NCBI GenBank assembly: GCA_002841315.1
Contig: PHEW01000006.1
Location: forward strand, 62,001-126,000
Length of the DNA: 64,000 nt
Direction: 5' to 3'
From: Actinobacteria bacterium HGW-Actinobacteria-4
GTDB taxonomy: Bacteria > Actinomycetota > Actinomycetes > Actinomycetales > Demequinaceae
The translations under genes were made by a program, and so were the position numbers. Under the pieces are notes generated by a model that saw only the letters and a list, made by a program, of their open reading frames with translations, ran no database searches and had not been told where the DNA came from. Of this stretch, positions 58,835-64,000 are shown piece by piece (position 1 is the stretch's first letter; the number at the start of each line of letters is the position of its first letter).

Positions 58835-59560
58835 ATGACCGACGGCGAGCAGTTCAAGGAGATACCCGAGTCGATCTTTGCCGACGACGACGGTTCGGCC
58901 GATGCCCGGCTCGCCCAAGCGCTGATCAAGTACTCGCGCGGCAAGACGGAATTACTTGAAGTAGTCGAGGCACTTGCCTACGCTCGGGTGCTGATCCCGG
59001 TGATGGCTTCTGGTGATGCGCGCCATGTGGGCAAACATGGCATCGAGCAAGACGAGGTGGCGTCAACGGGCGTGGTTGCCGTTCAGATGCCCGATGGCCG
59101 GACTGCGCTTCCGGTCTTCACCGATGTGGACGCGATGAAGGCCTGGAACGTGACAGCCCGACCCATCCCGGCTGAGGGGCCCCGTGCGGCGCTCGCCGCG
59201 GTGGCCGAGGAGTGGAGCACGCTCGTGCTCAACCCGGGGATGGAGACCGTGACTATTCCGCGGCCCGCGGTGTGGGCACTTGGTCAGGGTGAGCAGTGGC
59301 GACCCGCGGTTACGCGGGACGGCGTTGTCGAGGATGTCGTGCTGGCGATCCGGGAGGCGGTGACGCTCGACGATCAGGTGAGGGGAGTGGGCGCGGTGCG
59401 CGGCAGGAGCGCTGAGGTGGCGGTGGTGTTGCGGCTGGTACCCGATCTCACTCGGGAACAGGTGAATGCTGTGGTGGAGCGGGTGCAGCGTGCGCTCGCT
59501 CGCAGTGAGGTGGTCACCCAGCGGGTCGATAGCCTCGAACTGCGGCTTGCTCAGGCGTGA
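58835..59560 (+). CDS. SseB family protein
   Basis: The 241-residue protein carries an SseB N-terminal domain (LAQALIKYSRGKTELLEVVEALAYARVLIPVM, MPDGRTALPVFTDVDAMKAWN) and an SseB-like C-terminal half (LVLNPGMETVTIPRPAVWALGQG). SseB-like genes lie downstream of priA in many actinobacteria; function unknown. A TAGAGT box 6 bases before ATG 58835 suggests a leaderless transcript. It converges on the serine-protease operon with a 9-base gap. Confidence 0.85.
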   Translation: MTDGEQFKEIPESIFADDDGSADARLAQALIKYSRGKTELLEVVEALAYARVLIPVMASGDARHVGKHGIEQDEVASTGVVAVQMPDGRTALPVFTDVDAMKAWNVTARPIPAEGPRAALAAVAEEWSTLVLNPGMETVTIPRPAVWALGQGEQWRPAVTRDGVVEDVVLAIREAVTLDDQVRGVGAVRGRSAEVAVVLRLVPDLTREQVNAVVERVQRALARSEVVTQRVDSLELRLAQA

Positions 59561-59569
59561 CGCGCGCGC

Positions 59570-60295
59570 TCAGTTGCAGACAAATGGGTTCGGCTTGTGA
59601 GTTGAGGTGTCTTCGAGGAACACCGTGAGCGATGAGAGTTTGACCGCGTAACTGTTCTCCCCTTCGTCACCCGCGTACAGCACGCCGACGATCTCTCCCA
59701 ACTGATTGGCGACCGGCGAGCCTGAGCTACCTGGGCGCGAGGCAGCTGCGATCGCGTAGACGAAGTCAGGTGAGTTGTCGAGGGTGTCCGGGACCGAGGC
59801 GTAGTAGCGACCGGTGTTGGTCTCGAGACGGTCCCCGTTGGGGTAGCCCACAATGGAGAGCTGATCGCCGATCTCGGGGCCGTCGGCGCTGATGACGGCG
59901 AACTCGGTGAACTCCGCATCCACCGTCATCATCGCGAGGTCCACGACCGTCGACAACACCGACGAGGTGACGGTGTAGTCGCGGCCGTCGTAACTGGTCA
60001 CCTCAAGATTCTGGGCGCCTTCGATCACGTGCCGGTTGGTGATGAGGGTGTTCTCGTTGAGAACCCATGCTGATCCGTTGATGAACTGCGTGCACGTGTT
60101 ACCGCGCACGCGCATGGAGATGCGTTGCACGTTGGTGAAGCCGTCGGTGGAGGTCACAAGGCCGTCGGGTCGAGCCGAGACTTCGACCACCGGCACAAAC
60201 GTGGGGGGTAGAGGCGGCGGGCCTTCGGGGAGCACACCGCAACCAGCGAGGCTTGCCACCGTGATCGCGGCGACCGCTAGCGAAAGACTACGCAT
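59570..60295 (-). CDS. trypsin-like serine protease lipoprotein (copy B)
   Basis: The 241-residue protein has a lipoprotein signal (VAAITVASLAGC, Cys19) followed by VLPEGPPPLPP and a chymotrypsin-fold domain. The triad is visible: His in LITNRHVIEG, Asp in VVDLAMMTVD, Ser in SRPGSSGSPVAN. Cysteines NTCTQF and the terminal VCN may form a disulfide. Its target is unknown. It starts inside the stop of the coiled-coil gene (TGATG). It is a paralogue of the protease at 61050-61784, sharing the CxVLPEGP linker and triad contexts. Confidence 0.85.
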   Translation of the reverse strand: MRSLSLAVAAITVASLAGCGVLPEGPPPLPPTFVPVVEVSARPDGLVTSTDGFTNVQRISMRVRGNTCTQFINGSAWVLNENTLITNRHVIEGAQNLEVTSYDGRDYTVTSSVLSTVVDLAMMTVDAEFTEFAVISADGPEIGDQLSIVGYPNGDRLETNTGRYYASVPDTLDNSPDFVYAIAAASRPGSSGSPVANQLGEIVGVLYAGDEGENSYAVKLSSLTVFLEDTSTHKPNPFVCN

Positions 60296-60951
60296 CAGCG
60301 TGAGGCCCGTTCGGCTTGATAGGCCTCGAAGTTCGCGTTGACCTCATTGCACGCGGCGGTCGTGGTGCGCTCAACCTGCGCGGCGGAGCTTCCGGGGAAG
60401 TAGAGTCTCGAGTCGGTCAGAACATCGATGATCGTCTGGCGCTGATCCGAGCAGAAGCGGTAGTTCTCCACGAGGCTCTCAAGAAGCTTGCGATCGTCGA
60501 TGGCATTTGCCTCTTCGTTGGCGAGGTCTGAGATCCGAGCCGTGGCACTGTCGAGCTGGCTTCCAATGAGTGCCAGTTGCTCTGCTTGAAGTTCTGCCTC
60601 GGCACGCTCCGTTGCAAGAGTCTCGCCCAGTTCCAGCGCTTCGGCCCGCAACTGATCGTTTTGCTCGATCCACTGACCGTTGACCATCCACAGGTAGGCG
60701 CTCAGGGCCGCGAGGCCTACCAGGCTCGCTCCCAGCAGAGTTCGCACGGCCACCTTCACCCAGCGTCGCTCATGCTGGCCGACGGGCTCACTGCCGGCGC
60801 TCAGGCTCAGTGCCGGCGTGGACGGGGGAGGCAAGGCCGGTAGCAATGGCGGATCTGCCACGAACGGCTGCTCGCCGCTGGGAGGTGGCGCGGAGGTGAC
60901 TGGCACCGGCGCAGCGTTAGAAGTCTCTGGGATAGAAGTGGTGTCGCTCAC
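60295..60951 (-). CDS. membrane coiled-coil protein (copy B)
   Basis: The 218-residue protein has a Pro-rich cytoplasmic N-terminus (~62 residues), one TM helix (about 68-90), an extracytoplasmic coiled coil (QNDQLRAEALELGETLATERAEAEL onward) and a C-terminal domain with two cysteines (YRFCSDQRQTIIDVL and TTAACNEVNANFEAY). No known family was recognised. It starts with GTG 60951 and is coupled to the protease gene downstream. Its arrangement and C-terminal pattern match the protein encoded at 61781-62482. Confidence 0.75.
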   Translation of the reverse strand: MSDTTSIPETSNAAPVPVTSAPPPSGEQPFVADPPLLPALPPPSTPALSLSAGSEPVGQHERRWVKVAVRTLLGASLVGLAALSAYLWMVNGQWIEQNDQLRAEALELGETLATERAEAELQAEQLALIGSQLDSATARISDLANEEANAIDDRKLLESLVENYRFCSDQRQTIIDVLTDSRLYFPGSSAAQVERTTTAACNEVNANFEAYQAERASR

Positions 60952-61013
60952 AGTGTGCCGCCCTCAGTCTGCTCGTACCCGCTATCAGAAGAACTCTAGC
61001 CCATCGTTGCTGG

Positions 61014-61036
61014 CACGCGTCAGGACCTGACGTGTG
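61014..61036. repeat. inverted repeat between the two protease modules
   Basis: CACGCGTCAGG (61014-61024) mirrors CCTGACGTGTG (61026-61036) about a single central A, with one mismatch. It lies between the stop of protease copy A and the start of coiled-coil copy B, so it could be a terminator-like hairpin or an operator for the second module. Confidence 0.45.
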
Positions 61037-61049
61037 AGGCTTGTCGCAC

Positions 61050-61784
61050 CTAGCTGGGGCAGGTGTTAGATTCCGGGACCAGCAGCGAAGGCTCGGCGAG
61101 CAGGGTTCTCAGGGTCGACACCGGCACAATGAAGCTCTGGTTGGATTCGTTCTTCGCGTAGATCACTCCGACAACTTCTCCGGACTCATTGAGCACCGGC
61201 GAGCCGGAGCTTCCTGGCTCGACCTGCGCTGAGGTTGCGTAGACCGTCCCTATGGCGCCGCCAAGGGGGTCTGTGGTGGGCCCCAACACGACGCCGGACA
61301 CCGTGGTGAGACGCCCGCCGCTGGGATAGCCGACCACCGTGATGACATCGCCCTCTTGAGGATCCTCTTGCGCGCGAATGGGAAAGTTGCCCCCCAGCGA
61401 GTCTTCAACTGTCACAATCGCGATATCGGCGATCGTGGTGGTGGAGATTGCCGTTGCCTCGGTTAGCCGGCCGTCGTACGTGGACACCTCGAGCGAGCGT
61501 GAATTCTCGATAACGTGGCGGTTAGTCACCAAAGTGAAGGCGTCGATGGCGAACCCGGTGCCCGTTGCCAAGAAGTCGCACCCCACATTGCGGACCCGTA
61601 CCGTCATGCGCTGTGCCGCATTGAATCCGTCTGGAGACAGCGCTCCGGGGCCATCACCTGGTGACAGCGTGGGCTGGATGCGGAACTCGGGCAACTCGCC
61701 GGGCCCCTCCGGTAGCACAGCACAGCCAGCGAAGACGGCCGCGCCTGCGACAGCAAACACTAGTGTCCGGAAGCGGCGGTTCAT
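61050..61784 (-). CDS. trypsin-like serine protease lipoprotein (copy A)
   Basis: The 244-residue protein has a lipoprotein signal (LVFAVAGAAVFAGC), VLPEGPGELPEF linker and chymotrypsin-fold domain with His in LVTNRHVIENS, Asp in IADIAIVTVED and Ser in VEPGSSGSPVLNESGEVVG. Cysteines VGCDFLA and NTCPS match those of copy B. ATG 61784 overlaps the stop of the coiled-coil gene (ATGA), which fixes the start. The protease probably acts outside the membrane with its coiled-coil partner (inference). Confidence 0.85.
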   Translation of the reverse strand: MNRRFRTLVFAVAGAAVFAGCAVLPEGPGELPEFRIQPTLSPGDGPGALSPDGFNAAQRMTVRVRNVGCDFLATGTGFAIDAFTLVTNRHVIENSRSLEVSTYDGRLTEATAISTTTIADIAIVTVEDSLGGNFPIRAQEDPQEGDVITVVGYPSGGRLTTVSGVVLGPTTDPLGGAIGTVYATSAQVEPGSSGSPVLNESGEVVGVIYAKNESNQSFIVPVSTLRTLLAEPSLLVPESNTCPS

Positions 61785-62482
61785 GGCCGCAGTTGCTGTT
61801 GGAACTGAATGTTTGCGTTGGTAGCCGCCGCGCACAACTGGTCCACACTTGCCGCGAAAGCCTCGAGCTCCTCCGGGGAATAGGCCTCGGGGGTCTTCAT
61901 GTATGTCGCAAGCTGGGTCTTACTGTCGATGCATCGGTTGAGTCCGTTTGTCACTGACGATGCTGTGGACAGCAGGTCGGAGAGCAACGAGATCCTCTGT
62001 TCTGCGGTGGCTGCGCTGTCTCCAGATTGACTGACGGCGTTGGCAAGATCGAGCACTCGCGACTGCAATGTGGCGCGCTGGTCCTCGAGCAGTTCGATCT
62101 GTTGGGCTTGGGTGAGAACCGCGACTTGTTCTGCGGCGAGGTCCGCGGCGAGAGCGTGGTTCAACTCGGTAAGCTCGCTGGAGCGGATCGCCCACTGGTC
62201 GCTGACGTTCCAGAGGTGCACCACGACTCCTACCGCGATAGCGAGCAACACGGCCAAAGTTGCGCTCACCAATGCCCACGCATGGTCTCGCAGCCAGGGC
62301 ACCAGGGGAGTGCGGCTTGCCGCCGTGGTGCGCACTTGAGACCGGGTGAGTCCAGGTGACGTTCCCGACGGCGCCTCAGCTTCGCTCAGGATGCTGGCGG
62401 AAGCGGGCGCGTCAACGTCGCCGCGCAGCAATGCATCAACGACTGTCTTCTCGTCCTGTTCGGGCGAGGTTTGACCTTGCAT
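61781..62482 (-). CDS. membrane coiled-coil protein (copy A)
   Basis: The 233-residue protein has a ~67-residue cytoplasmic N-terminus, a TM helix (about 70-92, LVSATLAVLLAIAVGVVVHLW), an extracytoplasmic coiled coil (SSELTELNHALAADLAAEQVA...) and a C-terminal part with two cysteines (LNRCIDSKTQLATYM and DQLCAAATNANIQF). The C-terminal pattern parallels copy B (RFCSDQ..., AACNEVNANF). It begins one base after the DUF1844 stop, so it belongs to that operon. Function unknown. Confidence 0.75.
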   Translation of the reverse strand: MQGQTSPEQDEKTVVDALLRGDVDAPASASILSEAEAPSGTSPGLTRSQVRTTAASRTPLVPWLRDHAWALVSATLAVLLAIAVGVVVHLWNVSDQWAIRSSELTELNHALAADLAAEQVAVLTQAQQIELLEDQRATLQSRVLDLANAVSQSGDSAATAEQRISLLSDLLSTASSVTNGLNRCIDSKTQLATYMKTPEAYSPEELEAFAASVDQLCAAATNANIQFQQQLRP

Positions 62483-62483
62483 A

Positions 62484-62849
62484 TTAGCTAACTACTCCCG
62501 TGTACTTCTCGCCTGGACCCTCGCCGGGCGCGTCCGGAATGACCGAAGCCTCCCGAAATGCCAATTGTACGCTTCGCAACCCATCTCTCAACGCTCGGGC
62601 GTGGGTGTCTCCCAAATGCGGTGCCGCCGCGGTTACCAAACCGGCGAGCGCGGTGATAATGGTGCGTGCTTCATCGAGATCTTTGTGTTCGTCGCCATCC
62701 TCCGCCAGACCGCATCGAAGCGCTGCGCCGCTGAGCAAGTGCACACCAACGGTGGTGACCAACTCGACAGCTGTGACGTCCGCGAGGTCCCGTGCGGCAG
62801 CGTCGGCCCCCCGTCTGTCGGGGCGTGGGCTGGGTGTTTGGTCGCTCAT
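62484..62849 (-). CDS. DUF1844 family protein
   Basis: The 121-residue protein has an acidic, variable N-terminus and the DUF1844 helical core (DVTAVELVTTVGVHLLSGAALRCGLAEDG, LDEARTIITALAGLVTAAAPHLGDTHARALRDGLRSVQLAFREAS). DUF1844 genes sit beside infC in many actinobacteria; function unknown. It heads a minus-strand operon that continues into the coiled-coil/protease modules, linking them to a conserved housekeeping neighbourhood. AGGAGA lies upstream of the ATG. Confidence 0.88.
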   Translation of the reverse strand: MSDQTPSPRPDRRGADAAARDLADVTAVELVTTVGVHLLSGAALRCGLAEDGDEHKDLDEARTIITALAGLVTAAAPHLGDTHARALRDGLRSVQLAFREASVIPDAPGEGPGEKYTGVVS

Positions 62850-62998
62850 GGTGATATTGTCTCCTACAGACCGGTTGTGGGTTCACTCACAACGCGCAAG
62901 TGGAGTCCACCTCCCACCTTTGGGCCAAAGCAATGGGCCAGGGTTAGGTCCCTGCAGTAGTGGCGCGTTTGCGTGCCGCAGCAGCGGGAGACTCGGTG

Positions 62999-63038
62999 GC
63001 CTCTACTTGTGTTCGGGTAGGGGCTTTTTCCTTGCCCC
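62999..63038 (+). promoter_or_regulatory. attenuator-like leader of infC
   Basis: GCCTCTAC (62999-63006) pairs with GTAGGGGC (63017-63024) and is followed by TTTTT (63025-63029), an intrinsic terminator 42 bases before infC. GGGGC (63020-63024) can instead pair with GCCCC (63034-63038), which would break the terminator. Two mutually exclusive hairpins are the mark of attenuation control. The terminator arm makes the 3' part of the stem. Confidence 0.65.
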
Positions 63039-63070
63039 GACGGTGTCAAGCACGAGCTGAAGGAGCCAAC

Positions 63071-64000
63071 ATCAACGAGCCCCGCATCAACGAGCGCATT
63101 CGCGTTCCTGAGGTCCGCCTAGTCGGGCCCCAGGGCGAGCAGGTCGGCATTGTCCGTATTGAAGACGCGCTCCGACTCGCGCAAGAAGCGGATCTCGACC
63201 TGGTCGAGGTAGCACCCACATCGCGGCCGCCCGTGGCCAAGCTGATGGATTACGGCAAGTTCAAGTATGAGGCTGCGGTGAAGGCGCGTGAGGCGCGTCG
63301 CAACCAGGTCAATACCGAACTGAAAGAGATGCGTTTTCGCCTCAAGATTGATGAGCACGACTACGAGACCAAGAAGGGTCACGTCATTCGGTTCCTCAAC
63401 CAAGGTGACAAAGTCAAGGTCACGATCATGTTCCGTGGCCGTGAGCAGTCGCGCCCCGAGATGGGCCGACGCTTGCTGCACCGCCTCGCGGAAGACGTTG
63501 CCGACTTGTCGGTGATCGAGAATGCGCCGTCGCAAGAGGGCCGGAACATGTCGCTGGTCTTGGGACCGCTCAAGAAGAAGGCTGAGGCGCGCGATGCGGC
63601 TCGCAAGGAGCGCGAAGCCAAGAAGGCCGCCGATGACGCTGAGCGCGCATCACGGGCTGCGTCCAAGGAGCCTGTGGCGCCCAAAGTTGCGGACCCCAAC
63701 GATGCTGTGATGAAGGCAGAGGCACCGGCGAAGGCCGACGCCGAGGCTGGAGCACCGGCAACGGCACCGGCGAAGGCGAAGGGCTCGAGCACAGCAAAGA
63801 CCGAGAGCGCCACGAAGACGGCACCCAAGCCCAAGGCCACTGCTGCGGCGAAGGCCTCGGATAAAGCTGAACCAGCGACCAAGGCAGCGCCCAAGCCCAA
63901 GGCGGCGGCGAAGCCCGGCGATGCGGCCAAGCCGAAGGCGGCACCCAAGCCCAAGGCAGCATCCAAGCCCAAAGCCAAGGCCCCGGCCAAGGCTGACAAC
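63071..64000 (+). CDS. infC: translation initiation factor IF-3 (3' partial)
   Basis: IF-3 checks start-codon and initiator-tRNA pairing on the 30S subunit. The start is ATC 63071: AAGGAG (63060-63065) lies 5 bases before it and the product begins [19 protein letters not shown] as in IF-3. No ATG/GTG/TTG exists at this position, in line with the self-regulating non-canonical infC starts known in bacteria. The N-domain ([20 protein letters not shown]), linker ([16 protein letters not shown]) and C-domain ([34 protein letters not shown]) are complete by ~180. A Lys/Ala/Pro-rich tail of at least 125 residues then runs off the window; 310 codons are seen without a stop. Confidence 0.95.

Follow-up and report, generated by a model that had tools for sequence, protein, structure and literature searches.

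A conserved gene pair of a coiled-coil membrane protein and a predicted trypsin-like lipoprotein protease, present twice in a Demequinaceae genome

Introduction

Serine proteases of the outer membrane face, such as MarP and the HtrA family, have their anchor or regulator in cis. MarP is the closest experimental precedent for the protease discussed here. Its function needs its membrane tether, according to PMC4992679, and PMC6628586 describes cleavage of the wall hydrolase RipA by MarP. This article concerns a 64,000-nucleotide stretch of contig PHEW01000006.1 (positions 62,001 to 126,000, forward strand) of the Demequinaceae member Actinobacteria bacterium HGW-Actinobacteria-4, hereafter the window. 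The minus strand of the window carries two adjacent copies, A and B, of a gene pair in which a protease resembling these (PR) has instead a dedicated partner in trans, a coiled-coil membrane protein (CC).

That CC and PR constitute a two-gene unit is well supported. PR is a known kind of protease; the CC family and the two-gene arrangement match no library searched, and no description of the pair was found in the open-access literature searched. On balance, we favour the view that each pair is one envelope machine, in which an anchored, register-locked stalk with a disulfide-clamped head would hold and control its own MarP/HtrA-like lipoprotein protease. Binding between CC and PR, the substrate and the physiology are what we infer from sequence patterns. 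For annotators, the pair offers a family to name and a signature, namely the lipobox, Arg63 and two Cys of PR together with the Trp and two Cys of CC. The two divergent pairs of Demequina, the genus of the window, also provide a natural orthogonality experiment on protease-partner matching.

A two-gene unit across Actinomycetota

An original prediction, made from the letters of the window, described two adjacent pairs on one strand, and re-reading the open reading frames and junctions bore this out. The genes overlap as ATGA at the CC-B/PR-B junction and as TGATG at the CC-A/PR-A junction, and in each protease VLPEGP comes after the lipobox Cys and the His-Asp-Ser triad is intact. An alignment of the copies gave 40% identity for PR-A and PR-B (expectation value, E, 6e-47). 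CC-A and CC-B agree at 41 of 167 aligned positions (25%, E 9e-8) and have in common two Cys as well as a conserved Trp that follows the membrane helix. As this 25% could arise from coiled-coil composition alone, the similarity was tested against the wider family.

A CC-A search of 149 genomes (that of the window and its relatives) gave 58 with a match at 1e-3, and the loci of the 57 other genomes were read along with the window. This first set comprises loci L034-L126 and the window; L083, L084 and L091 were omitted as weak matches that the profile did not confirm. PR directly follows CC in 126 of the 130 profile hits. Of the remaining four, a frameshift fragment accounts for one; the other three each open a CC-CC-PR triplet, in the two genomes of a sister genus. 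All 44 Demequina genomes (44/44) carry the locus, in the order infC (presumed from its sequence, as in the original prediction), DUF1844, CC, PR and a gene that we take to be SseB-like. Two pairs are present in 33 of these genomes and one in 11. The pair retained in the latter is always B-type, and the profile revealed no orphan A gene at the locus in any of the 11.

The linkage also holds from the protease side. A protease-similarity scan of titled genome records gave at least 80 loci, some in genomes shared with the first set. Ranked by E-value, the 69 best of the 80 matches listed have CC directly upstream, as shown by profile in 68 and, at L195, by inspection and a wider profile; neither profile shows a CC at the other 11, which have 31-36% identity and come from several phyla. 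The genera include Demequina, Cellulomonas, Isoptericola, Cellulosimicrobium, Oerskovia, Promicromonospora, Sanguibacter, Actinotalea and Georgenia, among others, followed by records from Intrasporangium, Acidimicrobiales, Egibacter and Nitriliruptorales. In the records of these last four groups, several of them contigs of metagenome-assembled genomes (MAGs), the pair is intact without infC in the flanks read.

Broader samples point the same way. In a phylum sample, 25 of 396 genomes match the CC profile at 1e-6 and, the window's own genome aside, 15 have a full-length CC with both Cys, which PR adjoins in 14; at least two of these 15 loci are sequence-identical to loci of the protease scan. 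The pair is intact without infC at 14 phylum-sample loci. Nine further loci (L223-L231), with a coil and a signal peptide or anchor, no protease and no Cys pattern, were judged compositional and left uncounted. In an order sample, CC is found at 1e-6 in 78 of 396 genomes. A class sample has matches at 1e-3 in 52 of 394 genomes, just three of them better than 1e-15, and its weak matches were likewise judged compositional and kept out of the counts.

The pair is thus kept in distant lineages of Actinomycetota, also away from infC. At six loci away from infC, 20 neighbour proteins (from rough gene calls) had no Pfam family in common between loci. From the linkage in both directions and the unshared neighbours, we conclude that the pair is the unit, and that infC and DUF1844 are local scenery. 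CC precedes PR in every pair seen. Among 126 pairs, 92 have a PR start codon that shares bases with the CC stop as NTGA, and one, pair A of the window, as TGATG; in 30 more, a start codon lies between -30 and +60 bases from the CC stop, and three show none of these arrangements. The proposal of a dedicated, conserved two-gene unit is therefore upheld by CC similarity and PR linkage in the surveyed genomes, and neither of the contrary outcomes that the original prediction had named, dissimilar CC copies or genes unlinked in relatives, occurred.

Two variants of the arrangement deserve mention. In L077, L078 and L079, from a sister genus in the window's family, the second units are CC-CC-PR, with two CC genes before one protease, which suggests that hetero-oligomeric stalks may have evolved. 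At L042:4683-6065 (genome G009), CC-B and PR-B occupy one open frame with no stop between them and with the lipobox signal still inside, either a fusion by natural read-through or an error of assembly.

The coiled-coil partner

The CC proteins were described in the original prediction as matching no recognised family, and library searches agree in giving no specific Pfam or NCBIfam match; for CC-B there is none at 1e-3. Assignment to a known family was tried with 42 members and rejected, as only scattered coiled-coil matches (SMC, Phage_scaffold and the like) appeared, varying by member. Foldseek found no PDB fold match for CC at E 0.001. Against PDB sequences, there are six matches at 0.01, all in the stalk region (profile positions 39-120).

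Conservation is concentrated at a few residues. In an alignment of 36 CC proteins, the two Cys are invariant and the Trp just past the membrane helix nearly so. Both Cys occur in all 77 of 77 distinct CC proteins from titled records and in 123 and 122, respectively, of 129 CC rows in the first set, the remainder being gaps, with six of these rows from the headless f8 g10 clade described below; the 66-residue CC fragment of L059 was dropped from these counts and its locus from the distance test described below. An AlphaFold2 model of CC-B (mean predicted local distance difference test score, pLDDT, 90.8; predicted template modelling score, pTM, 0.58) places helices at residues 10-94, 98-140 and 147-175 of the 177 modelled. 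Given these helix positions, Cys128 and Cys161 (model numbering) would face each other across a hairpin, a pairing suggested by their spacing only.

The membrane helix has more positive charge before it than after it in 40 of 44 B proteins and in 33 of 33 A proteins, so the topology is predicted to be N-in, C-out. The cytoplasmic part has a mean column conservation of 0.29 (B) and 0.24 (A), versus 0.52 and 0.49 for the membrane and outer part. Its length varies widely, with about 10-173 (B) and 4-82 (A) residues before the profile start when the first start codon is taken, and neither Pfam nor NCBIfam recognised a domain in it.

The stalk was measured in two segments, from the conserved Trp to a conserved Asp at the helix break and from there to the first Cys. 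Because the sequences are related, length classes were counted rather than sequences, with two outliers omitted (L164, at a contig edge, and the L059 fragment). The first segment has a mode of 58 and other classes of 44, 51, 54, 62, 65 and 72; the second has a mode of 29 and other classes of 15, 22, 24 and 26. Six of the ten alternative lengths lie a multiple of 7 away from the mode (P 0.001 against a one-in-seven expectation), as do four of six in the first segment alone (P 0.005). Control regions have no such heptad excess, with 1 of 13 length classes in the Cys-Cys hairpin, 3 of 22 in the PR linker and 0 of 5 in the PR core. This pattern suggests a real coiled coil in which register would matter on both sides of a hinge. 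In the window, stalk A is 14 residues, or two heptads, shorter than stalk B.

The protease

Both proteases match Trypsin_2 (PF13365) above the cut-off of 27.6 bits, PR-B with 83.1 bits (E 4.3e-23) and PR-A with 71.1 bits (E 2.2e-19). Each has one N-terminal signal peptide with a lipobox, then a linker, then the protease domain, and by this motif PR is a predicted lipoprotein. The AlphaFold2 model of PR-B (mean pLDDT 87.6, pTM 0.76) falls below 50 at residues 35-44, between the lipid anchor and the protease, and its top Foldseek hits include DegP, MarP and DegS (3lt3, 3k6y and 3k6z being the MarP fold hits).

Constraint was assessed in 203 linked protease rows, comprising 172 distinct cores from two locus sets that overlap in genomes. 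The lipobox Cys (Cys21), Cys69 and the catalytic His, Asp and Ser are each present in 203 of 203 rows (172 of 172 distinct), and Cys242 in 198. Two further positions set the linked proteases apart from 19 comparison proteins (12 unlinked, six MarP and one HtrA-like). Arg63 is found in 203 of 203 linked rows versus one of 19, and Leu159 in 197 of 203 versus none of 19. These residues may be clade marks or part of a partner site.

A role as a defence system was considered and rejected. PADLOC gives both proteases protease-domain hits (RT-Protease_XI, LmuA, PDC-M35A and others); CC-B has one weak match (PD-T4-6, E 0.0036) and CC-A none.

Evolution and co-divergence of the copies

Trees of both proteins, which included only every third locus outside the window's family, show B to be the type in common with other families and A to be the divergent type. 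In both trees, a single branch sets the second copies of Demequina apart, with support of 27 (PR) and 88 (CC). In approximately unbiased (AU) tests, a single clade uniting every row of the family was not rejected (p 0.36 for PR, 0.39 for CC). When the clade was restricted to the genus, the test rejected it in PR (p 0.009) but not in CC (p 0.085). As the genus-only clade is rejected in PR, the copies probably predate the genus. A duplication is the likely origin of the second copy, which may instead have been acquired from elsewhere. Tree length is 15.5 for PR-A versus 8.6 for PR-B, and the A unit was probably lost in some Demequina lineages, both genes together.

Co-divergence was analysed in 32 two-pair genomes with 2000 permutations, controlling for the SseB-like protein, translation initiation factor IF3, DUF1844 and the other pair. 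Cognate partners are correlated, with a partial r of 0.62 for CCA-PRA (0 of 2000 permutations as high) and 0.25 for CCB-PRB (29 of 2000). Non-cognate combinations are not, with -0.01 for CCA-PRB (1076 of 2000) and 0.09 for CCB-PRA (474 of 2000). Since CC-A adjoins both PR-B and PR-A, adjacency alone does not explain this specificity.

Proposed mechanism and alternatives

Stalk and cognate protease appear to have evolved together and are therefore probably parts of one machine on the outer side of the membrane. CC would be made first and would insert with its N terminus inside and its C terminus outside. It would assemble through its coiled coil and present its head several nanometres above the membrane, clamped by a presumed disulfide between the two Cys of the predicted helical hairpin. 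The protease, lipid-anchored and tethered by a linker of about 50 residues, would dock on CC, as we infer from the sequences. CC would place, assemble and gate PR, acting as an in-trans counterpart of MarP's in-cis four-helix membrane domain. By analogy with MarP, a wall enzyme is a likely substrate. The two copies probably serve different substrates or conditions, because the second unit is one clade, has diverged faster and was probably lost pairwise. The protease-scaffold or protease-regulator relation of the original prediction thus stands as an interpretation, based on the start-stop overlap and the cognate-specific co-divergence, and envelope quality control is a possible role. A further suggestion, which we regard as unlikely, is that CC is a molecular ruler: its register-locked coil would set the height in the wall at which the protease acts, changing mainly by heptads, and the two copies, 14 residues apart, would work at unequal depths or on different wall-bound substrates, and might report wall distance or integrity.

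Several observations weigh against the model of a single envelope machine. The 13 kb inspected at L219/L242 (genome G1021) contain a CC homologue with both Cys but no detected protease. In six genomes that belong to one clade (f8 g10; L080, L089, L094, L098, L100 and L126), the CC proteins stop right after the coiled coil and lack the Cys head, yet remain paired; no infC was detected in the flanks read there. At L198, a Nitriliruptoraceae MAG, a protease has Arg63 and Cys69 but lacks a lipobox, and no CC was detected upstream of it; the linked clade consequently has no clean boundary, and this protein is possibly a soluble or orphan relative. The heptad pattern is not significant in the second segment alone (2 of 4, P 0.10) and is weaker over the whole stalk (4 of 8, P 0.018). 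Because part of the same data had prompted the heptad idea, all these P values err on the generous side. The A clade is weakly supported in the PR tree, and the AU tests leave its origin by duplication within the family unproven. Correlations persist between the two CC proteins (partial r 0.45) and between the two proteases (0.34), so the background is not fully removed. Shared recombination history could also inflate correlations between adjacent genes, an effect not seen for the adjacent CC-A and PR-B. Finally, no member of the VKOR family (PF07884) was found in the genome of the window, where other routes to disulfides were not searched.

Among the alternatives, CC could mainly be an inhibitor or safety partner that keeps the protease silent until a signal arrives (wall damage, redox change at the disulfides or pH), with any scaffold role secondary. 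The invariable CC-before-PR order with its start-stop overlap and the conserved Cys pairs of both partners are consistent with this, and PMC4992679 ties the MarP disulfide to active-site stabilisation. However, the sequences do not separate inhibition from scaffolding, and in the f8 g10 clade the protease persists where the entire Cys head is gone. We consider this explanation rather unlikely. Signalling by proteolysis through the membrane, as put forward in the original prediction, would follow the DegS-RseA manner, with PR cutting CC outside (site 1) and the cytoplasmic tail of CC relaying the signal. The topology would fit, a single-pass partner standing by an outer-face protease of DegS-like fold, but the cytoplasmic part of CC is poorly conserved, very variable in length and without a recognised domain. 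Trans-membrane signalling is therefore disfavoured, and we hold it to be very improbable.

It appears quite unlikely that PR is a plain MarP substitute, an acid or wall stress protease with CC as a passive neighbour or anchor. MarP (NF033740) is the best NCBIfam match of the proteases, below its cut-off of 250 bits (PR-B 89.7, PR-A 83.2), and the Cys pair of PR aligns with that of six MarP. In the order sample, 35 genomes of one family (code f1) bear the pair, and this family is absent among the 176 MarP-positive genomes. Taking both order samples as the same 396 genomes, MarP is over the cut-off in 16 of 78 pair-bearing versus 160 of 318 other genomes, from which the pair is not merely MarP renamed. 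Replacement of MarP as a simple rule was rejected, because 16 genomes carry both. PR is also already lipid-anchored by its motif, and its co-divergence is specific to the cognate CC, neither of which suits a passive partner. There is even less to commend the idea that the adjacency is inherited gene order with no functional relation, and we give it almost no credence. The Micrococcales loci keep infC and the SseB-like gene as stable boundaries of the pair, as inherited order would have it, but it is intact without infC in other lineages and at the 14 phylum-sample loci, and in Demequina it occurs twice or once, always as a pair.

Locus layout and neighbouring genes

The run reads DUF1844, CC-B, PR-B, CC-A and PR-A on the minus strand and lies between infC and the SseB-like gene (Table 1). 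As originally predicted, a DUF1844 gene heads it. The DUF1844 stop sits one base ahead of CC-B, and a 98-nucleotide spacer separates pair B from pair A. PR-B is taken to start at ATG 61784-61782 because its lipobox signal peptide begins there; the GTG at 61835 in the open reading frame list is an unlikely start. DUF1844 is a constant neighbour in Demequina and in most Cellulomonas-type loci. It was not detected at Georgenia loci and is therefore placed outside the unit.

Table 1. Features of the CC-PR locus, in window coordinates
Feature	Position	Strand	Description
CC-B	61781..62482	-	Predicted type II single-pass membrane protein with coiled-coil stalk; Trp97 (62192-62194), Cys184 (61931-61933), Cys217 (61832-61834)
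PR-B	61050..61784	-	Predicted lipoprotein, trypsin-like protease; lipobox Cys21; presumed disulfide Cys69-Cys242; His90-Asp120-Ser193
CC-A	60295..60951	-	Second predicted coiled-coil membrane protein; GTG start; Trp94, Cys167, Cys201
PR-A	59570..60295	-	Second predicted lipoprotein, trypsin-like protease
DUF1844 gene	62484..62849	-	Head of run; PF08899 match, E 7.7e-14
Flanking gene	58835..59560	+	Conserved locus boundary, side opposite infC
infC (presumed; translation initiation factor IF3)	62960..64000	+	Divergent neighbour, served as locus marker

A rare kind of start codon is known for infC. Here, the gene may start at a candidate ATC codon (window 63071-63073), ATCAACGAG after AAGGAG, instead of the upstream GTG of the open reading frame list. 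IF3 has a long C-terminal tail rich in Ala, Lys and Pro (window 63680-64000) that reaches the window edge. Two observations from elsewhere may also be recorded. No VKOR was found in the genome of the window (G000) although the four exported proteins here carry conserved Cys pairs, and the apparently unpaired CC of L242 could reveal the role of CC on its own.

Comparison with known systems

For CC, generic coiled-coil proteins such as SMC and Phage_scaffold give weak, scattered matches to some members, and none explains its Trp and two-Cys pattern. The DegS-RseA pairs resemble CC and PR in combining an outer-face serine protease with a single-pass membrane partner. They differ in that here the cytoplasmic part is unconserved and a coiled-coil stalk bearing a Cys hairpin serves as partner.

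For PR, the HtrA family (DegP, DegQ and DegS) shares the Trypsin_2 domain and fold. Unlike these proteins with their PDZ domain, PR has no Pfam PDZ match and ends at its C-terminal Cys after the protease domain. The third protease match of the window's genome (G000:C9, L003) is a separate HtrA-like protein with neither PR Cys present; we take it to be an HtrA, with a PDZ-like tail, from reading its sequence. Three proteins of this genome match NF033740, none over the cut-off. MarP (Rv3671c), like PR, is an outer-face chymotrypsin-type protease of actinobacteria, and the Cys before the oxyanion strand and the C-terminal Cys align between PR and six MarP, the disulfide in PR being presumed. As described in PMC6628586 and PMC4992679, however, MarP carries four N-terminal membrane helices in cis, whereas PR bears a lipobox and its coiled-coil partner is a protein of its own.

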